Assembly (NCBI GenBank): GCA_023664865.1
Contig: JAMPEU010000020.1
Span: forward strand, 1-50,167
Reading direction: 5' to 3'
DNA from: Butyrivibrio sp.
GTDB taxonomy: Bacteria; Bacillota; Clostridia; Lachnospirales; Lachnospiraceae
DNA: 50,167 bases
Every line of letters starts with the position of its first letter. Positions within the stretch are counted from its first letter, which is position 1. Below are positions 6,263-46,901 of this stretch, in pieces. The notes under the pieces were generated by a model, which was not told the DNA's origin, ran no database searches, and saw only the letters and a list, made by a program, of their open reading frames with translations. The translations under genes were made by a program, and so were the position numbers.

Positions 6263-8419
6263 ATGGAACTTGTCAGAGACGAAAACAAGAATGTAGAATT
6301 TGAGAAACGTGCGCGTGAACTGGTCGCACAAATGACGCTGGAGGAAAAGGCTTTTCAGATGCTAAATGGGGCTCCGGCGATAGAACGGCTTGGCATTAAG
6401 GCTTATAACTGGTGGAACGAGGCACTCCATGGCGTGGCAAGAGCCGGTACTGCGACGGTTTTCCCGCAGGCGATTTCGCTCGCCGCTTCTTTTGATGAAG
6501 ATTTTATAGAAGAGGTTGCGGACGCTATTTCCACGGAAGGAAGGGCGAAATTCAACGCGCAGCAGAAATACGATGATTTAGACATTTACAAGGGACTGAC
6601 ATTCTGGTCGCCCAATGTCAATATATTCAGAGATCCCAGATGGGGGCGCGGGCATGAGACTTTCGGCGAAGATCCGTATCTGACTTCCAGACTTGGAGTG
6701 AGATTTGTAGAAGGTTTGCAGGGGCATGATGAGAATTATATGAAGGCGGCGGCATGTGCGAAACATTTCGCAGTACATAGCGGACCTGAAGACCTGCGCC
6801 ATGAGTTTAACGCTGAGGCGAGCAAACAGGATATGTACGAGACATATCTTCCGGCGTTTAAGGCGTGTGTCCAGGAAGCGAAAGTTGAAGCGGTCATGGG
6901 CGCGTACAACCGTACCAACGGAGAGCCGTGCTGCGGCAGCAAAACCCTTCTTATTGATATACTTAGAGACGAGTGGGGCTTTAAAGGTCATGTGGTTTCA
7001 GACTGTTGGGCAATCAAGGATTTTCACGACGGGCATGGGGTGACGTCCGGTGCGCTTGAGTCGGTTGCGCTTGCAGTAACTAACGGCTGCGATTTAAACT
7101 GCGGCAATCTTTTCATATATGTTAAGGAAGCGGTGGAAAAAGGAATGATACCGCAGGAGAGGGTTGACGAGGCTTTAGTCCATCTTTTCACCACCAGAAT
7201 GAAACTCGGACTTTTTGATGAAAAGGGAAAGACTCCTTATGACGACATTCCTTACACTGTGGTTGACTCCAAGCCGATGCAGGAGCTTAATCTGAAAGCG
7301 GCGGAGAAGTGCATAGTGCTGCTTAAGAATGAGGATAACCTTCTGCCGCTTGATAAATCGAAGATAAAGACCATAGGCGTAATCGGGCCAAACGCAGATA
7401 ACAGAAAAGCGCTGGTCGGCAACTATGAAGGTACGGCATCCCGCTATTATACCATTTCCGAAGGTATTCAGGAATATGTAGGCGGCGATGTAAGGGTGCT
7501 GGTATCGGAAGGCTGCCATCTGTATAAAGATAAACTCAGCAACTTAAGCGCAGGAAGCGACAGAGATGCCGAGGTAAAAGCGATATGTGAGGCAAGCGAT
7601 GTAGTGGTAATGTGTATGGGGCTCGATGCCGGACTTGAAGGAGAAGAGGGCGATGAGAGCAACCAATATGCCAGCGGCGACAAGCCGAACTTAAATCTTC
7701 CGGGCATACAGCAGGAGATGTTGGAAATTGCCTATGCGTGCGGCAAACCGATAGTATTGGTGCTGCTTTCGGGAAGTGCGCTTGCAGTAGGCTGGGCGGA
7801 CGAACACATTCCGGCGATTGTTCAGGGCTGGTATCCCGGCGCGCAGGGCGGCAGGGCGATAGCAAGAGTATTGTTCGGCGATAAAAATCCCGAAGGAAGA
7901 ATGCCTGTGACATTCTATCGCACTACAGAAGAACTCCCTGAATTTACCGATTATGCGATGAAGGGAAGAACCTATCGCTACATGAAGAACGAGGCGCTTT
8001 ATCCTTTCGGCTATGGCTTATCCTATACTGAGTTTGACTATAAAGAGATATCCGTGTCGTCTGATACTGTGGGCGAAGACGGCATCGTGGTAAAAACTGT
8101 CGTAAGCAATACAGGAGACAGGGAAGGAACGGAGACTGTTCAGGTCTATGTGAAAGCGGACAGGGAAGGTACGCCGAATGCGCAGCTTAAAGGCATCTGC
8201 AAGCTTAACTTGAAACCCGGCGAGAGCAGGGAAGTTGCAATTAAACTTCCGCTTAAAGCGTTTGCGCTTTACGACGAACAGGCGGTAAACAGGGTTGCGG
8301 CAGGAAAATATCTGGTCTATATGGGCGGAACGCAGCCCGATACGCGCAGCGAGAAACTGACCGGAAAGAAGGTCGGTATGGCGGTAGTGACTGCGGCGGA
8401 AGATGTAGTTGTAGATTAG
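6263..8419 (+). CDS. GH3 glycosidase, probable beta-xylosidase
   Basis: The 718-residue protein has the GH3 layout: an N-terminal barrel with NWWNEALHGVARAG and DPRWGRGHETFGEDP (substrate subsites), the nucleophile D247 in VSDCWAI, a second alpha/beta sandwich, and a C-terminal fibronectin-III-like domain from about 600. The NWWNEALHG signature is typical of bacterial beta-D-xylosidases and alpha-L-arabinofuranosidases of this family. It has no signal peptide. GGAAGGGG sits 12 bp upstream of ATG 6263. It would remove xylose from the non-reducing end of imported xylo-oligosaccharides and sits upstream of the GH67 gene. A beta-glucosidase activity cannot be excluded. Confidence 0.88.
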   Translation: MELVRDENKNVEFEKRARELVAQMTLEEKAFQMLNGAPAIERLGIKAYNWWNEALHGVARAGTATVFPQAISLAASFDEDFIEEVADAISTEGRAKFNAQQKYDDLDIYKGLTFWSPNVNIFRDPRWGRGHETFGEDPYLTSRLGVRFVEGLQGHDENYMKAAACAKHFAVHSGPEDLRHEFNAEASKQDMYETYLPAFKACVQEAKVEAVMGAYNRTNGEPCCGSKTLLIDILRDEWGFKGHVVSDCWAIKDFHDGHGVTSGALESVALAVTNGCDLNCGNLFIYVKEAVEKGMIPQERVDEALVHLFTTRMKLGLFDEKGKTPYDDIPYTVVDSKPMQELNLKAAEKCIVLLKNEDNLLPLDKSKIKTIGVIGPNADNRKALVGNYEGTASRYYTISEGIQEYVGGDVRVLVSEGCHLYKDKLSNLSAGSDRDAEVKAICEASDVVVMCMGLDAGLEGEEGDESNQYASGDKPNLNLPGIQQEMLEIAYACGKPIVLVLLSGSALAVGWADEHIPAIVQGWYPGAQGGRAIARVLFGDKNPEGRMPVTFYRTTEELPEFTDYAMKGRTYRYMKNEALYPFGYGLSYTEFDYKEISVSSDTVGEDGIVVKTVVSNTGDREGTETVQVYVKADREGTPNAQLKGICKLNLKPGESREVAIKLPLKAFALYDEQAVNRVAAGKYLVYMGGTQPDTRSEKLTGKKVGMAVVTAAEDVVVD

Positions 8420-8425
8420 GAAAGA

Positions 8426-8600
8426 TACTGTTCATAGTTATATATGGCATGAACTCATATGTTTCCATGAGTGGCACACTTTCGTTCCGTGTAAAATCGC
8501 AGCGGTACTAAGCTCGAAAATACCTCGCTAAGTACCGGCGTTTTACAAGGACCGCTCACGGAAACATATGAGTTCATGCCGCTCAAAACTGTGAATAGTA
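8426..8600 (+). repeat. Large hairpin repeat, copy 1
   Basis: This begins seven bases after the GH3 stop. A 21-bp perfect inverted repeat (8446-8466 with 8560-8580) is flanked by weaker outer arms (8426-8437 with 8589-8600) whose two mismatches are G-U compatible. Inside are the one-sided segment CACACTTTCGTTCCGTG (8475-8491), TGTAAAA/TTTTACA (8490-8496, 8541-8547), and GCAGCGGTACTAAG with CTAAGTACCGGCG. It is a member of the family also found at 8636, 15968, 17887, 38439 and 43021. Confidence 0.9.
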
Positions 8601-8635
8601 ACATAAATTGCAAAACTTATTATTTCACAGCATGA

Positions 8636-8800
8636 GTTGTACAATATATACAAAACATAAGCCGGGCGCTCAACAGAAAATTTACTTCGTAAATTATCTG
8701 GCGCCGTCGGTACTTAGCGAGGTCTTTTCGAGCTTAGTACCGCTACTGGCGGCAATGCAGCGAAAGCGTGCCCTACGTTGTTTTGTATATATTGTACAAC
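8636..8800 (-). repeat. Large hairpin repeat, copy 2 (reverse orientation)
   Basis: The outer arms are a perfect 21-bp inverted repeat (8636-8656 with 8780-8800) with no similarity to the arms of copy 1. On the minus strand the core contains CACGCTTTCGCTGCATTG, then CCGCCAGTAGCGGTACTAAG. It differs from copy 1 by one base over about 37 central bases. An extra small hairpin (AATTTAC ttc GTAAATT, about 8679-8695) is inserted on one side. It lies 40 bp upstream of the GH67 start. Confidence 0.88.
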
Positions 8801-8839
8801 GTGGCTTATTAAATATAAGAAGGGAGTACGAACATAAAC

Positions 8840-10873
8840 ATGGCTTACGAACAAGCATGGCTTGCTTACACATGCAAAACATCAGATAAGGAGATTGCGA
8901 ATCTCGAATATATATATGCAGACACAGAAAAAGACGAGCTTATAAATAACAGCATAAAAGAGCTGCAGCTTGCATTTGCGGGTATAAGCGGGCATGAACT
9001 TAAGGTATGCCCCTTATCGGACGGCGATATAGCGGAAATTCCGTTCGCTGCAAATGGAGCCGATACGAACATAAACTTAAAAAGTATACATCTTATAATT
9101 AAGGAAGGTCTGAAAGCGGAAGGCTACAGAGTCTATGGGAAAAACGGCGGCATTATCATAGAAGCGCCCGACTCCAAAGGCATCCTGAACGGAACTTTTG
9201 AACTTATCCGTCAGATTAAGATGGAAAATCCGCTTGCAGACATGGACATATGCAAAGAGCCGGTTATGCCGCTTAGAATGTTAAATCATTGGGATAATAT
9301 GGACGGCAGCATTGAACGCGGATATTCGGGGGCTTCGTTCTTTTTTGAAAATAATGAAATCATAGTAAATGACAGGACTGTCACTTATGCGAGGCTGGCG
9401 GCAAGCGTGGGGATAAACGCGGTCGTAATCAATAACGTCAATGTGAAAGATTCTGCTACATGGCTTATCACAGACAGGTATTTTGATAAGTTAAAGGCGA
9501 TGTCCGAGATTTTTGCAGGCTTCGGAATTAAGCTCTTTATGAGCCTTAACTATGCCGCACCGGTTGAACTGGGCGAACTTGACAGCGCAGATCCGCTGGA
9601 TTTAGAGGTACGCGAGTGGTGGAAAAAGAGAATGGAGCTTGTATTTAATGCAATCCCCAATCTGGGAGGCTTCCTTATTAAAGCGGATTCAGAAGGGCGT
9701 CCGGGGCCTTTTACATATGACAGGACTCACGCCGACGGAGCCAATATGTTAGCCGAAGCGGTAGAGCCTTACGGCGGAATCATAATATGGCGTTGTTTTG
9801 TATATAACTGCAAGCAGGACTGGCGCGATTACAAGACGGACAGGGCTAGGTCGGGCTATGACAATTTCATGCCCTTAGACGGTACGTTTAAAGATAACGT
9901 AATCTTGCAGATTAAAAACGGACCGATGGATTTTCAGGTTAGAGAACCGGTACATCCATTGTTCGGAGGACTTACGAAAACCAATCAAATGTTGGAAGTG
10001 CAGATTGCGCAGGAATATACGGGGCAGCAGCGGCATATATGTTATCTAATCCCGATGTTTTCCCAGGTTTTGCAATTCAGGACCTATGTGAAGGATAATG
10101 ACGATACGGTGGGAGATATCGTATCCGGCAGGACTTTTAATCAGATAAACTGCGGCATGGCGGCGGTAGCGAATACCGGAAATGATGATAACTGGACGGG
10201 GCATGACTTTGCGGCAGCAAATCTTTACGGTTTCGGAAGGCTTGCTTTTGATACGTCTCTTACGCCGCAGGAAATAGCGAAAGAGTGGATTAATCTGACA
10301 TACGGCACGGATAAAGAAGTGGAAGGGATTCTTCTTAATATATTGATGTCTTCATGGCCAACTTATGAGAAATACACATCGCCGCTTGGCATAGGCTGGA
10401 TGGTGAATCCAAACTACCATTATGGACCGAATGTGGATGGGTATGAGTACGACAGGTGGGGGACATATCACCGCGCCGACCATCTGGGCATAGGCGTTGA
10501 CAGGAGCCATGACGGAACCGGGTACGCCACGCTTTACAGAGAGCCTAACGCCTCTATGTACGATGATAAGGAGAAATGTCCCGACGAGCTGCTTTTATTT
10601 TTCCATCATATTCCATATACATGGAAGTTAAAAAGCGGCAAGACTGTAATCCAGCATATTTACGATACGCATTTTGAAGGCGCGGAGGATGTGGAGAAGA
10701 TGGCGCGCGACTTTGAGGGGCTTAAGGGAAAGCTGCCGGATGGCGTATATGCAAGGGTTATGGCACGAATTGAGCATCAGAAAGAACATTCAAAAGAATG
10801 GCGCGACAGGATAAACACTTATTTCTACAGAATATCGGGGATTCCTGACGATAAAGGCAGAAAAATATATTAA
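8840..10873 (+). CDS. aguA: GH67 alpha-glucuronidase
   Basis: The 677-residue protein is a GH67 alpha-glucuronidase, which cleaves 4-O-methyl-glucuronic acid from the non-reducing-end xylose of aldouronates. The family signature ADSEGRPGPFTYDRTHADG is intact. E285 matches the published catalytic acid number of the Geobacillus enzyme. The size fits the family. There is no signal peptide, as expected for the intracellular enzyme. GGGAG precedes ATG 8840. The neighbours (GH3, sugar ABC importer, uxuA, uxuB) match aldouronate utilisation clusters of other Firmicutes. Confidence 0.95.
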   Translation: MAYEQAWLAYTCKTSDKEIANLEYIYADTEKDELINNSIKELQLAFAGISGHELKVCPLSDGDIAEIPFAANGADTNINLKSIHLIIKEGLKAEGYRVYGKNGGIIIEAPDSKGILNGTFELIRQIKMENPLADMDICKEPVMPLRMLNHWDNMDGSIERGYSGASFFFENNEIIVNDRTVTYARLAASVGINAVVINNVNVKDSATWLITDRYFDKLKAMSEIFAGFGIKLFMSLNYAAPVELGELDSADPLDLEVREWWKKRMELVFNAIPNLGGFLIKADSEGRPGPFTYDRTHADGANMLAEAVEPYGGIIIWRCFVYNCKQDWRDYKTDRARSGYDNFMPLDGTFKDNVILQIKNGPMDFQVREPVHPLFGGLTKTNQMLEVQIAQEYTGQQRHICYLIPMFSQVLQFRTYVKDNDDTVGDIVSGRTFNQINCGMAAVANTGNDDNWTGHDFAAANLYGFGRLAFDTSLTPQEIAKEWINLTYGTDKEVEGILLNILMSSWPTYEKYTSPLGIGWMVNPNYHYGPNVDGYEYDRWGTYHRADHLGIGVDRSHDGTGYATLYREPNASMYDDKEKCPDELLLFFHHIPYTWKLKSGKTVIQHIYDTHFEGAEDVEKMARDFEGLKGKLPDGVYARVMARIEHQKEHSKEWRDRINTYFYRISGIPDDKGRKIY

Positions 10874-14896: not shown

Positions 14897-15964
14897 ATGG
14901 AAATGACATTGCGCTGGTACGGCTCAAAATTTGACACTGTAACTTTGGAACAGATAAGGCAGATTCCCGGAGTGAAGGGAATTATCACCACTCTTTATGA
15001 TACACAGCCCGGCGAAGTATGGCAGACAGAGCGCATCAGAGCCATGAAAAAAGAAGTCGAGGCGGCGGGCATGCACATCGCCGGAATAGAAAGCGTCAAC
15101 ATACATGACGCAATCAAAGTAGGTTCCGCCGACAGGGATACATATATTGACAATTATATTGAGACACTTGAAAATTTGGGAAAAGAAGATATACACATGG
15201 TATGTTACAATTTTATGCCCGTATTTGACTGGACAAGAACCGAGCTTGCGCGTAAAAGAGAGGACGGCTCGACTGTGCTTGCTTATACGCAGGAGGCTGT
15301 GGACGCTTTAGTCCCTGAAAAGATGTTTGAGTCTATCGCAGGCGACGCGAACGGAAGCATCATGCCGGGCTGGGAACCTGAGCGCATGGAGCATGTTAAG
15401 GAACTTTTTGAAATGTATAAAGACGTGGACGATGAGAAACTTTTTGAAAATCTCAAGTATTTTCTGGAGCGCATCATGCCGGTCTGCGATAAATATGATA
15501 TAAATATGGCTATTCACCCCGATGATCCAGCGTGGAGCGTATTCGGGCTTCCGCGTATTATTATAAATAAGAAAAATATCCTTAGAATGATGCAGATGGT
15601 AGACAATCCACACAACGGCGTGACGTTCTGCTCAGGCTCTTACGGCACCAATCTTGAGAATGACCTGCCTGATATGATTCGCTCACTGAAAGGCAGAATC
15701 CATTTTGCACATGTGCGTAACCTTAAGTTCCATTCACCGACTAATTTTGAAGAGTCGGCGCATCTTTCAAGCGACGGCAGCTTCGATATGTACGAGATTA
15801 TGAAAGCTTTGTACGATATAGGGTTCGACGGACCTATCCGCCCCGACCACGGAAGAATGATATGGGGCGAGAAGGCAATGCCCGGCTACGGACTCTATGA
15901 CAGGGCGCTGGGCGCGGCGTATTTGAATGGGTTGTGGGAAGCGATAGAGAAGAGTGCGAAATAG
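14897..15964 (+). CDS. uxuA: Mannonate dehydratase
   Basis: The 355-residue enzyme dehydrates D-mannonate to 2-keto-3-deoxy-D-gluconate. It starts MEMTLRWYG, like other UxuA proteins, and carries metal-site motifs FCSGSYGTN and HFAHVRNL and the C-terminal RPDHGRMIWGE. I place the start at ATG 14897, with AAAGGA about 12 bp upstream. An in-frame start at 14849 would add a 16-residue basic extension not typical of the family. Together with UxuB downstream it processes glucuronate released by GH67. Confidence 0.95.
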   Translation: MEMTLRWYGSKFDTVTLEQIRQIPGVKGIITTLYDTQPGEVWQTERIRAMKKEVEAAGMHIAGIESVNIHDAIKVGSADRDTYIDNYIETLENLGKEDIHMVCYNFMPVFDWTRTELARKREDGSTVLAYTQEAVDALVPEKMFESIAGDANGSIMPGWEPERMEHVKELFEMYKDVDDEKLFENLKYFLERIMPVCDKYDINMAIHPDDPAWSVFGLPRIIINKKNILRMMQMVDNPHNGVTFCSGSYGTNLENDLPDMIRSLKGRIHFAHVRNLKFHSPTNFEESAHLSSDGSFDMYEIMKALYDIGFDGPIRPDHGRMIWGEKAMPGYGLYDRALGAAYLNGLWEAIEKSAK

Positions 15965-15967
15965 TAG

Positions 15968-16160
15968 TTACTGTTCATATGCATTGAATGTGACATGGAT
16001 TTATATGATTTCACTTGAGGTACGCTCTCGCTCCGTGTAAAAGCGCAGCGGTACTAAGCTCAAAAGCCGCTTTGCGTCTTTTTTACTAAGTACCGGCGTT
16101 TTACAAGGACCTCAAGTGAAAGCATATAAATCCATGTCACCCATAGGCTGTGAATTAGTA
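15968..16160 (+). repeat. Large hairpin repeat, copy 3
   Basis: This starts four bases after the uxuA stop. The 31-bp arms (15990-16020 with 16110-16140) have one mismatch. The core contains TACGCTCTCGCTCCGTG, TGTAAAA/TTTTACA, GCAGCGGTACTAAG and CTAAGTACCGGCG. The apical part pairs AAAAGCCGC with GCGTCTTTTT. Weaker outer arms contain ACTGTTCATA and CTGTGAAT, as in copy 1. Confidence 0.9.
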
Positions 16161-16229
16161 GTAGAGAATATACTTGTGTAATTATTAGTTGTGTTGTCGG
16201 ATAAAAAGACAGCGGAATGGGGGATTGTG

Positions 16230-17886: not shown

Positions 17887-18032
17887 GGTATGGGGCATAT
17901 GTTTCCCTTTGCGGCACACTCTCGTTCCGTGTAAAACGTAGCGGTACTAAGTTCAAAAGCCATAAAGCAGGCTTTTTCACTAAGTGCCGACGTTTTACAA
18001 GGGCCGCAAAAGGAAACATATGCCCCCATACC
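17887..18032 (+). repeat. Large hairpin repeat, copy 4
   Basis: The arms (17887-17915 with 18003-18032) pair over 28-29 bp with one mismatch and one bulge. The core has CACACTCTCGTTCCGTG, TGTAAAACGT/ACGTTTTACA, GTAGCGGTACTAAG and CTAAGTGCCGACG. The apical hairpin AAAAGCC/GGCTTTTT differs from copies 1 and 2. It starts 46 bp after the uxuB stop. Confidence 0.9.
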
Positions 18033-18087
18033 TTCCATGTATTGAATTATTATTCACTTATTCACTCATTTACTTATTCGCTTATTT

Positions 18088-18114
18088 ATTCACAGTTGTT
18101 GGGCGGCATGGACT
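18088..18114 (-). repeat. Remnant of hairpin repeat end
   Basis: Read on the minus strand this stretch (GAGTCCATGCCGCCC then ACTGTGAAT) resembles the right flank of copy 1 (GAGTTCATGCCGCTC then ACTGTGAATAG at 8570-8598). It has no core and abuts the 3' end of the minus-strand gene at 18116. Confidence 0.5.
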
Positions 18115-18115
18115 C

Positions 18116-37958: not shown

Positions 37959-37970
37959 AATAAGAATGCA

Positions 37971-38007
37971 GTATGGACTCATATGCTGGGCGGCTGTGAA
38001 TAGTATG
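37971..38007 (+). repeat. Core-less remnant of the hairpin repeat
   Basis: It reads GTATGGACTCATATG, then CTGGGCGG and CTGTGAATAGTATG. This joins a left-arm-like end to the right flank seen in copy 1, with the core missing. It starts 12 bases after the thrS stop. Confidence 0.5.
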
Positions 38008-38438: not shown

Positions 38439-38579
38439 TCCACGGTAATGAATATAATCCATAGCAGGCACGCTTTCGCTGCATTGCCGCCAGTAGCGGT
38501 ACATAAAGTGCTAAAATACAGCACTTAAGTACCGACGGCGGCACAGCACCTGCTATGGGTTATATTGTATTACCGTGGA
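38439..38579 (+). repeat. Large hairpin repeat, copy 5
   Basis: The arms (38439-38468 with 38549-38579) pair over about 29 bp with one bulge and one G-U. AAAAGT/ACTTTT (38429-38434, 38584-38589) extends them and ends in T5, so it can act as a terminator. The core contains CACGCTTTCGCTGCATTG, TGCCGCC/GGCGGCA, GTAGCGGTAC and AAGTACCGACG, with apical AAGTGC/GCACTT. It starts 15 bases after the DUF1540 stop. Confidence 0.9.
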
Positions 38580-38627
38580 TTGAACTTTTTCAAACTGCGG
38601 ACGGACTGAATTTTTTCAAATTTCCGC

Positions 38628-40155: not shown

Positions 40156-40245
40156 AAGCAACAGTTCAGTTAGGGACATGGACGCATATGTTCCAATTGA
40201 GACTAATCATACGCGTTCATGCGCCTGCAGACGAACTGCTGCTTT
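40156..40245 (+). repeat. Hairpin after rplT, related to repeat family arms
   Basis: AAAGCAACAGTTC (40156-40168) pairs with GAACTGCTGCTTT (40233-40245). Inside, CATGGACGCATATG (40177-40190) pairs with CATACGCGTTCATG (40208-40221). The inner arm matches the arm of copy 6 but the conserved core is absent. It may end the rplT transcript. Confidence 0.7.
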
Positions 40246-43020: not shown

Positions 43021-43197
43021 AGTTAGAGCTACAGGTACATGGACGCATATGTTTCCGTGCAGAGCCCCTTGAAAAACGTCGGTCCTTAGTGAAAAAGCTG
43101 CTTTTTAGCTTTTGAACTTAGTACCGCTACGTTTTTCACGGAACGAAAGTGTGGCTCAAGGGGAAACATATGCGTCCATGTACCTGCAGCTCTAACT
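43021..43197 (-). repeat. Large hairpin repeat, copy 6 (reverse orientation)
   Basis: The 36-bp arms (43021-43056 with 43162-43197) differ at one position. On the minus strand the core reads CACACTTTCGTTCCGTG, TGAAAAACGT/ACGTTTTTCA, GTAGCGGTACTAAG and CTAAGGACCGACG. The apical AAAAGC/GCTTTTT pairs. Unlike other copies it lies between divergent genes, not after a stop codon. Confidence 0.92.
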
Positions 43198-43277
43198 GCC
43201 ATGTCGGACAAATGAATTGACAATATCGGGATTGTGAAATATGATTAAATATACGAAAAAGGAGCAGTCTAAAAATC

Positions 43278-45319: not shown

Positions 45320-46804
45320 ATGAAATACAAAAATCCGATTGTGCGGGGGATGAATCCGGATCCCAGCGTGTGCAGCGCAAATGGCAAATATTATATGGTG
45401 TGCAGCACTTTTCAGTATTTTCCGGGAGTGCCGCTTTTTGAGAGCGAGGATATGGTGAACTGGAAGAAGATAGGGCATTGCCTTACCAGAACGAGCCAGC
45501 TTGAACTTAAGGGGGCGCAGACGACAGGCGGAATCTATGCGCCTACAATCAGGTACAATGACGGCAGATTTTACATGGTGACTACCAATGTGAGCATTGA
45601 TAAGAATTTTTATGTGTATACAGATGATATCTACGGAGAGTGGTCGGAGCCGATATATGTGGAGCAGGGCGGCATCGATCCATCTTTGTATTTTGAGGAC
45701 GGCAGAAGTTTTTTCATAAGCAATGGTGAAGACGAGCAGGGCGTAAGCTGTATCAGGATGTGTGAAATCGAGATAGAAACAGGCAGGAAACTTAGCGAAA
45801 CCAAACCGCTGTGGTATGGAAACGGCGGAAGGTATATAGAAGCGCCGCATCTGTATAAGTTCGGAAAATATTATTATATTCTGGACGCAGAGGGCGGCAC
45901 GGAATATGGTCATATGGTCTGCTATGCCAGAAGTGAGAATATGTGGGGGCCTTTTGAGTCCTGCCCGAAGAATCCCGTGCTGACGAACCGCAATCTGGGC
46001 GGCTATCAGCTGCAGGGTACGGGGCATGGCGACGTGATAGAAGATAAAGACGGCAACTGGTGGTTCATACATTTGGCGTTCCGCCAGATAGACAAATGGC
46101 AGACCTATCATCATTTGGGGCGCGAGGTCTGTCTTGTTCCGGTTAAATGGCAGGACGGCTGGTTCTATATGGGTGACGGCACGGCTAAGCTGGAATATGA
46201 ACTTCCCGACATTAAGGGGGAACAGAATGAACTTTCCTTCCGTAAGACTTTTGCGGATTTGTCGCTTAAAGCGGACTGGTGTTTCCTTAGGGAATACCGT
46301 GCGGAAATGTATGAATTTGGTAAAGATTACCTGAAAATCAAAGCGTCGGCTGACGATATCTTTGGACTGGGTTATCCTTCTTTTGCGGCTATTAGGCAGA
46401 GCGAGTTCCGGATGGAAATCGAGTGTAAGGTGGAGGGAAACTGCAAAGAGGCGGGCATAACGCTTTTTATGGATGAAAAGCACCATTACGATATATATTT
46501 GAATGATGAGGGCTGCGTGGTACTGCGGTATACGATAGGCTGCGTCAGCAAAGAAATGCAATCGCTCAAGGTACAGGATGGCAGTGCTGCAATTAAAATT
46601 TCCGCCGATGCGCTGGGATACCGCTTTTATGCGATGGAAAAAGACGAGCAGGGTGAATATGCGGAACTCGGATACGCCGATACAAGATACTTGTCTTCGG
46701 AAGTGGCAGGCGGCTTTACTGGAGTCATGATTGGGCTTTATGCAGTGGATGGTGATGGAAAAGAGGCAGTATTTAGGGATTTGGTGGTATCGCATGAGGA
46801 ATAG
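45320..46804 (+). CDS. GH43 glycosidase (beta-xylosidase/arabinofuranosidase)
   Basis: The 494-residue protein has an N-terminal five-bladed GH43 propeller with D14 (NPDPSVC), D120 (GIDPSLYFEDG) and E174 (YIEAPHLYK) as the catalytic triad, and a C-terminal beta-sandwich (about 300-494). It is a cytoplasmic enzyme without a signal peptide, acting on xylo-oligosaccharides or arabinose side chains. I choose ATG 45320 with AAGGAGGA (45307-45314). A hairpin-repeat fragment follows its stop. Confidence 0.92.
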   Translation: MKYKNPIVRGMNPDPSVCSANGKYYMVCSTFQYFPGVPLFESEDMVNWKKIGHCLTRTSQLELKGAQTTGGIYAPTIRYNDGRFYMVTTNVSIDKNFYVYTDDIYGEWSEPIYVEQGGIDPSLYFEDGRSFFISNGEDEQGVSCIRMCEIEIETGRKLSETKPLWYGNGGRYIEAPHLYKFGKYYYILDAEGGTEYGHMVCYARSENMWGPFESCPKNPVLTNRNLGGYQLQGTGHGDVIEDKDGNWWFIHLAFRQIDKWQTYHHLGREVCLVPVKWQDGWFYMGDGTAKLEYELPDIKGEQNELSFRKTFADLSLKADWCFLREYRAEMYEFGKDYLKIKASADDIFGLGYPSFAAIRQSEFRMEIECKVEGNCKEAGITLFMDEKHHYDIYLNDEGCVVLRYTIGCVSKEMQSLKVQDGSAAIKISADALGYRFYAMEKDEQGEYAELGYADTRYLSSEVAGGFTGVMIGLYAVDGDGKEAVFRDLVVSHEE

Positions 46805-46809
46805 GCGGT

Positions 46810-46846
46810 TTCCAAGGACCACTCAGGGAAACATATGCGTCCATGC
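46810..46846 (+). repeat. Half-element of the hairpin repeat
   Basis: Contains AAGGACCACTCAGGG, AAACATATGCGTCCATGC, matching only the right half of copies 1 and 6. The left half and core are missing. It starts six bases after the GH43 stop. Confidence 0.65.
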
Positions 46847-46901
46847 TCTACGGGCTGAACTTTTAAGTAAAAGTAAAATTTCTAATTTCAATTAAAAAGC
46901 A

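Follow-up and report, generated by a model that had tools for sequence, protein, structure and literature searches.

ERIC, YPAL and bcr1 elements are described by sequence consensus. They are large intergenic palindromes with tens to hundreds of mostly intergenic copies (PMC2267715). The element described here is like them in its size (~100-200 bp), in its tens to hundreds of mostly intergenic copies and in its predicted fold, whereas arms that vary while pairing, an asymmetric conserved core and another host group set it apart. REP sequences with TnpA-REP (Y1) are reported to be high-copy intergenic palindromes that often stand in pairs of opposite orientation (PMC3733652, PMC8266576, PMC2817692), and the present element shares these traits; REPs, however, are 20-40 bp long, and here direct repeats flank the elements and no Y1 transposase was found in four high-copy genomes. 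Template switching has been reported to create and maintain perfect hairpins (PMC8794818) and, between inverted-repeat arms, to homogenise the arms and invert the spacer (PMC8604942). Patterns consistent with arm homogenisation (PMC8794818, PMC8604942) and with spacer inversion (PMC8604942) are seen here, but in our case the process would act on a dispersed mobile family with a conserved core. Finally, IS4-type MITEs resemble the element in being short and non-coding, with terminal inverted repeats and 10-bp direct repeats, and in one genome (G022) there are insertion sequences with the same ends; unlike in such MITEs, the conserved part is a central folded core, for which the partner insertion sequences gave no match, and the ends vary while the core stays.

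We suggest, with a probability of about 0.72, that the element is a non-autonomous mobile palindrome of the MITE class, whose arms are matched by DNA copying and whose core is kept by the fold of one strand. The outer ends of the arms would be the terminal inverted repeats on which a transposase provided in trans acts, and the outer arms would stay complementary mainly by copying across the palindrome, through template switching or arm recombination, with one arm repairing the other. The same arm-copying process may flip the core, which would be kept by selection on the fold of one strand, as RNA or as single-stranded DNA.

Copies in the window and spread of the family

The window is a stretch of 50,167 nucleotides, contig C93 of a 3.82-Mb draft genome (G000, here the own genome), and G020 is the sister genome. 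When the window was searched with a covariance model with filters off, the six copies pointed out in the sequence-only reading were all found again, with E values of the core matches from 6e-25 to 2e-11 (Table 1); the training alignment of the model included five of these copies and excluded the one at 38439. A seventh full copy is absent from the window, and the next model matches, with E values of 0.009 and weaker, are opposite-strand shadows or chance. The conserved segment has nine matches at up to three mismatches, compared with 1.5 expected, and the folding energies of the window copies range from -75 to -113 kcal/mol, copy 4 giving -105 (-53 when clipped). The element is typically 150-190 bp long and is dispersed in the intergenic DNA of Lachnospiraceae. 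Solo arms or decayed fragments without the core, with the arm motifs CATATG and GTTCAG, lie at approximately 37962-38005, 40160-40240 and 46800-46870 of the window.

Table 1. Copies of the palindromic element and a solo remnant in the window (strand is that of the core match).
Feature	Positions	Strand	Core and remarks
Copy 1, subfamily A	8426..8600	-	Core 8464-8562; GNRA hairpin 8475-8491, minus strand; orthologous G020 site occupied too
Copy 2, subfamily B	8604..8810	+	Core 8683-8781; GNRA hairpin 8754-8770, plus strand; arranged divergently with copy 1; outer limits taken from the stretch missing in G020 (start at 8636 in the sequence-only reading)
Copy 3	15969..16155	-	Core 16010-16120; absent in G020
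Copy 4	17887..18036 (outer limits approximate)	-	Core 17904-18014; common to own genome and G020
Copy 5	38439..38584 (outer limits approximate)	-	Core 38458-38559, most divergent of the six; shorter, different palindrome in G020
Copy 6	43021..43200 (outer limits approximate)	+	Core 43055-43164; in G020 a collapsed outer palindrome only, around CATATG
Solo left-arm remnant of a further copy	18091..18115	.	Same copy intact in G020 (C44:23948-24129)

The inner core sequence recurs far beyond the window: with one mismatch allowed, the own genome has 143 matches to an inner 14-mer, compared with three for the reversed pattern, and a 17-mer form of the core has 170 matches there, compared with none for the reversed pattern. 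Of 36 same-genus relatives, 25 have a match to the 17-mer, whereas the 24 genomes from other families of the order have none. Lachnospiraceae are common in the gut, and in the search of this family that the sequence-only reading had proposed, the model matched 87 of 200 genomes, which represent 86 of 199 genera; together with the approximately 170 matches in the own genome, this marks a large dispersed family. In a sample of the phylum, model matches were found in 4 of 299 genomes, all from the window's own family, with the stricter filters that were used in both surveys and by which weak matches are lost. Contigs matching the model also come from records with the titles Mogibacterium, Candidatus Crickella, Selenomonadaceae and Muribaculaceae, and the range of the element may therefore extend beyond Lachnospiraceae. 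Four strong model matches (L132, L144, L172 and L176) lie on contigs of the Muribaculaceae-titled record; this family belongs to a different phylum, and these contigs are likely mislabelled or mis-binned. When loci with the 17-mer were checked with the model, 19 of 24 matched, including four from the Muribaculaceae-titled record; exact 17-mer matches in a cyanobacterial record and in four viral contigs (L139, L188-L191) gave no model match and were set aside as chance. Copy 1 had no match in the plasmid and phage collections.

The repeat is new to Rfam and to the papers searched, in agreement with the sequence-only reading, to which no described family with this core was known. In the window, only a tRNA was returned by Rfam at the gathering threshold, and at E values up to 10 positions 8400-8840 gave three chance-level matches, the best with an E of 2.8. 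No description of the repeat was found in the open literature, which was searched mostly without subscription papers and is therefore weak evidence of absence. If our reading is right, a repeat of nearly half of the sampled Lachnospiraceae genera has been missing from Rfam and from those papers.

Core fold, covariation and strand symmetry

The informative, folded strand is the reverse of the strand given in the sequence-only reading, and the one-sided segment CACRCTYTCGYTSCRTG described there is the reverse complement of a GNRA hairpin. Along the folded strand, the 5' half consists of the outer arm, a GRCC-YTTG junction, helix P2 and CGYCGG-YA-CTTAG-YGA, followed by a variable apical stem, after which come GAR-CTTAG-TACCG-CT-RCG, P2 again, a protruding hairpin (A-RY-GNRA-RY-G) and the outer arm. 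On this one strand, the core of about 100 nt would form a CU bulge, a CUUAG/CUUAG helix and, beneath a variable apical stem, a tandem-GA loop, with a GNRA hairpin bulging from the 3' side. In 183 of 205 elements, the position of this hairpin was assigned without pre-selection of the loop, and 173 of these are GNRA (GAGA 88, GAAA 45, GCAA 13, GGGA 10, GCGA 8, GGAA 8 and GTAA 1). All 173 loops of GNNA form among the 183 assigned hairpins carry a purine at position 3, a preference associated with RNA. An alternative hairpin count, 223 of 272, demanded a GNRA loop to score and includes motif matches that are not elements. The inner loop is mostly a tandem GA (CGA..GAG in 115, TGA..GAA in 55 and TGA..GAG in 17 of the 205 elements). 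Alignment A2 holds 54 of 68 representatives, which were hand-picked; it excludes copy 5 of the window (38439), variants with a long apical part and others, among them three representatives without a clear GNRA hairpin (L170, L173 and L180).

The core also varies by modules. A 20-bp hairpin module (AAGACCACTTNCAGTGGTCT on the strand of the sequence-only reading), which resembles a second small hairpin, is present or absent at one spot within the core, even between orthologues (L029, L033 and L011 compared with G020; also L015, L022 and L041). In L045 and one locus of another genome, a longer hairpin, GAATG...CATTC, stands in place of the GNRA hairpin, which is a module swap.

We analysed covariation in 41 elements outside the model training, mostly one per genus, in an alignment that leans towards the model structure because the rows were aligned to the model. 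Standard pairs occupied 95.6% of the core cells, and both sides changed in 19 of 24 core pairs, compared with a shuffled mean of 15.2; a value of 19 was attained in only 1 of 500 shuffles. The core had a covariation score of 0.623, compared with 0.208 for the shuffled controls, none of 500 of which was as high, while slid partners scored 0.140 at most; the slid-partner controls make a large alignment artefact unlikely. Judged by the shuffled and slid controls, covariation beyond shared ancestry and alignment bias is present in the core, the part that this analysis covered. At copy 4 (window 17887), the GNRA stem shows a compensatory change from A-U to G-C between the own genome and G020.

G·U and A·C are mirror images of each other across the two strands, so selection on the fold of one strand predicts more G·U than A·C. 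In the GNRA stem, the pairs were GC/GC 177, AC/GT 19, GT/AC 15 and AT/AT 1, with six G·U and no A·C, under a scoring that placed G·U slightly above A·C when locating the hairpin. The isolated mismatches of P2, taken only from the 183 hairpin-assigned elements, were 10 G·U, no A·C and eight others. The isolated mismatches in the outer arms of 172 elements were 40 G·T, 39 A·C and 43 others; here and in the core only distinct contexts were counted, and 1,074 of 7,263 aligned arm positions mismatch, partly through misalignment at the arm ends. The occurrence of G·U without A·C in the core, compared with the symmetric counts in the outer arms, indicate that the core is constrained on one strand, while the outer arms look kept complementary at the level of DNA. 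Since the strand-specific pairing is confined to the core helices, outer arms and core helices have to be treated apart. One P3 position is counter-evidence, being C·A on the GNRA strand in 52 of 205 elements, which equals a G·T wobble on the other strand. A loose first count, with contexts repeated and P2 included, gave 470 G·T and 371 A·C on the strand of the sequence-only reading, the opposite of the prediction from selection on the core strand, and a small strict count gave 14 G·T and 19 A·C on the same strand.

These results divide what had been proposed from the sequence. A structured RNA or a protein-recognised hairpin was suggested there on the ground that arms differ from copy to copy and yet keep pairing; what stands is a covarying structured core with strand-specific pairing, but the outer arms, where G·T equals A·C, do not count as evidence of structured RNA, and the whole palindrome is a mobile repeat. 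The near-random orientation to neighbouring genes and the core inversion at one shared site also speak against taking all the arms as such evidence. If our reading is right, two causes of covariation, DNA-level arm copying and strand-specific selection on the core, are separated within one molecule. The same tally of G·T against A·C mismatches could be run on further families of hairpins before their covariation is accepted as proving an RNA.

The comparison with the sister genome bears on the arms. At L058, the flanks and arms are colinear between the two genomes, and the core is identical at 87 of 91 positions when reverse-complemented, compared with 59 of 77 in direct alignment, so that the core has been inverted in place at one of the eight shared sites that were read. 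Template switching by itself would account for arms that match yet are free in sequence, for mismatches that are symmetric between the strands and for flips of the core. Based on the lack of a strand signature in the outer arms and the inversion at L058, DNA-level copying between the arms best explains the outer arms. In G447, which has 10 copies, the central block is 98.7% identical between copies, the outer 24 bases average 43%, and the outer arms within a copy match at 33-96% ungapped (mean 70%); a fixed element inserting into existing palindromes would also give this pattern. At six of the eight shared sites, leaving out L058 as inverted and L040 as visibly more divergent, the element differs between the own genome and G020 at 30 of 975 positions (3.1%) and the flanks at 255 of 2,721 (9.4%). 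The elements are thus either constrained or exchanging sequence among copies, and the low divergence spans arms and core, which arm copying alone would not cause. As the family offers many natural replicates, it lends itself to testing palindrome maintenance and core inversion in bacteria.

The strong covariation and strand-specific pairing of the core, its GNRA loops and its tandem GA would also be expected of a cis-acting structured RNA in 3' UTRs or intergenic transcripts, such as a terminator, an mRNA stabiliser or an RNase III site, with the arms selected as RNA too. Several copies start a few bases past the stop codon of an ORF, for example at window 8426 and 15969, and the six shared copies evolve more slowly than their flanks, both of which speak for such an RNA. 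Against it, G·U mismatches of the outer arms are not in excess when read on the core strand, and the core is flipped between the sister genomes at one shared site. In addition, between co-oriented genes, as defined by crude longest-ORF calls, the folded strand is sense in 22 and antisense in 30 cases in the own genome, and sense in 33 and antisense in 22 in other genomes. We therefore consider a cis-acting RNA unlikely. The orientation of the elements to neighbouring genes is close to random, and core flips fit this.

Insertion sites, transposon ends and candidate movers

In the stretches compared, G020 is mostly 85-95% identical to the own genome. The whole palindrome, with both arms, is absent from G020 at six sites (window 8604-8810 and 15969, L037, L039, L049 and L052); in this two-genome comparison, insertion and deletion are unpolarised except as direct repeats suggest. 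At window 43021 and at L015, all that is left in G020 are collapsed outer arms, whose breakpoints fall at the short direct repeats CATATG and CTCAT, and at L025 it keeps a single arm; we read these three remnants as deletion products.

Direct repeats flush with the arm ends were found at a score of at least 10 in 7 of 193 elements, compared with approximately 0.1 expected from permuted flanks. Their lengths at this score are 10 to 25 bp, weaker cases have 7 and 8 bp, and repeats within the range of 7 to 25 bp occur in the own genome, in G020 and in other genera. Copy 3 is flanked by the 7-bp repeat TAGTAGT (15962-15968 and 16156-16162), which taken alone is weak evidence of a duplication, with four own-genome cases scoring at least 7 compared with 1.7 expected. 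L243 of G020 has a flanking direct repeat of 25 bp with two mismatches, far above the other lengths. An earlier permissive search, superseded by the stricter end definition that supplies the figures used here, included a 13-bp repeat at L010; at a score of at least 8 it gave no excess in the own genome (1 of 71, compared with approximately 0.9 expected) and 3 of 112 at other loci, compared with 0.8 expected.

The element thus shows two features of MITEs. First, it is a short dispersed unit that is present or absent as a whole at the six sites, its non-coding nature being judged by length only. Second, terminal inverted repeats occur together with target-site duplications (10 bp at 24 of 29 sites in G022; 7 of 193 elsewhere). 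As to an autonomous partner with the same ends, candidates were found in G022, at 4 of 11 DDE_Tnp_1 loci, and none for the own-genome ends in the DNA examined. One point against the MITE reading is that a range of repeat lengths from 7 to 25 bp outside G022 is unusual for a single DDE transposase.

Such variable target duplications would be explained by a retrotransposed structured RNA, similar to a SINE, and G022 and G010, which both carry elements, have 10 and one matches to the reverse transcriptase domain PF00078, respectively. This domain had no match in the high-copy drafts G000, G020, G016 and G063 (86-97% complete), although it is found in five of six relatives that lack the 17-mer, and G022 shows uniform 10-bp repeats and IS4-type ends, so we regard a SINE-like origin as highly improbable. 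The Y1 transposase domain PF01797 likewise had no match in the same four drafts (86-97% complete), with 16 matches in G022 and one in G010. Reverse transcriptase and Y1 transposase were therefore rejected as general movers, since they were not found in the four high-copy drafts, though present in G022 and G010. As the own genome gave a match to neither, we regard both a retroelement and a REP as unlikely.

G022 has 118 model matches, including a young-looking group of near-identical elements. Of the 29 sites read, 23 have exact 10-bp repeats, one has ten with a single mismatch, one has nine, and four have no direct repeat but inverted flanks. The last (L300, L307, L309 and L319) carry TTACTATTCACGGC / GCCGTGAATAGTAA, as if the elements had gone into the middle of a second palindrome, an event that would make the arms longer. 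The ends of the G022 elements are CAATGTCATTAAGTTAAG, 18 bp with at most two mismatches by selection, and the 4 of 11 fetched G022 DDE_Tnp_1 loci have both CAATGTCATTAAGTTAAG ends within 0-2 mismatches, as does a DDE_Tnp_1 transposon in a contig of the viral collection. DDE_Tnp_1 is a domain that we take to be IS4-type. The core was not found in the G022 DDE_Tnp_1 loci with matching ends or in the viral-collection transposon. The shared ends and the absence of the core indicate that an IS4-type transposase is the likely mover in G022 and that the core is no part of the insertion sequence; very probably, a resident IS4-type (DDE_Tnp_1) transposase supplied in trans moves the G022 elements. The earlier concern that the repeats might turn out to be an IS-derived MITE is accordingly borne out in part: the G022 elements carry IS4-type ends, but the insertion sequences with these ends gave no match to the core.

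The DNA examined yielded no transposase whose ends match the elements of the own genome, a scan of that DNA gave no insertion sequences with GTTAC/GTAAC-type ends, and DDE_Tnp_1 had no match in the high-copy genomes G016 and G063; mobilisation in trans in these genomes is thus argued by analogy with G022. A 1.57-kb pair of G022 ends was rejected as a transposon, being two elements around one gene, which we read as a short-chain dehydrogenase. L421 of the viral collection holds another MITE, in two copies, which shares the 18-bp ends of the G022 elements and has apparent 10-bp repeats but no core match, indicating that these ends are used by unrelated cargo.

The ends differ between groups, with GTTACTNTTCATGGGG in G412 and AGGTAATTGCGAAAC in the own-genome loci L010 and L016, and the element forms include GTTAC-ended and AGGTAATT-ended ones; across genomes the ends differ and the core stays. 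Tentatively, the core could be an undescribed functional folded module, of RNA or of one DNA strand, which is carried in the inverted repeats of unrelated transposition systems, so that arms and ends would be interchangeable vehicles and a host or element factor would read the GNRA hairpin and the CUUAG core.

Gene context and pairing of copies

Elements lie within an ORF in 1 of 72 cases in the own genome and 5 of 106 in others; the own-genome case (L065, 987-1094) was rejected as an element, being a chance motif match without the fold. When elements lie up to 520 bp apart, 20 of 21 pairs are divergent, with the 5' ends of the folded strands facing each other, one is in the same direction and none is convergent; beyond 520 bp, 11 pairs are divergent, five convergent and three in the same direction. 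The 520-bp limit was chosen after the pairs had been seen, and at 700 bp there are 21 divergent and three same-direction pairs. One of these three same-direction pairs (L357, 75 bp apart) is probably one element counted twice, and approximately 17 of the 20 divergent close pairs are independent because four come from one repeated arrangement in G408. Copies 1 and 2 of the window (8426-8810) form a divergent close pair.

This directionality, by which insertion or retention would depend on orientation, together with a strand-specific core fold in elements oriented nearly at random to genes, would suit a single-stranded DNA hairpin of which one strand is recognised by a recombinase in replication or transfer, like integron attC sites or REP/IS200-type ends. 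To our knowledge, the enzymes of attC and REP/IS200-type systems produce no flanking direct repeats, which are present here; moreover, Y1 genes were not found in the four high-copy genomes, in spite of those in G022 and G010, and the invariant purine at position 3 of the GNNA loops points to RNA. Such a hairpin is, in our judgement, improbable. Insertions may favour the ends of existing copies as targets, because many G022 insertions sit at GTAACA^GTTC or within GTTACTATTCAC palindromes. The four G408 loci (L356, L379, L380 and L381) contain divergent core pairs with a spacing of 366-404 bp, possibly a composite element that was amplified as a unit.
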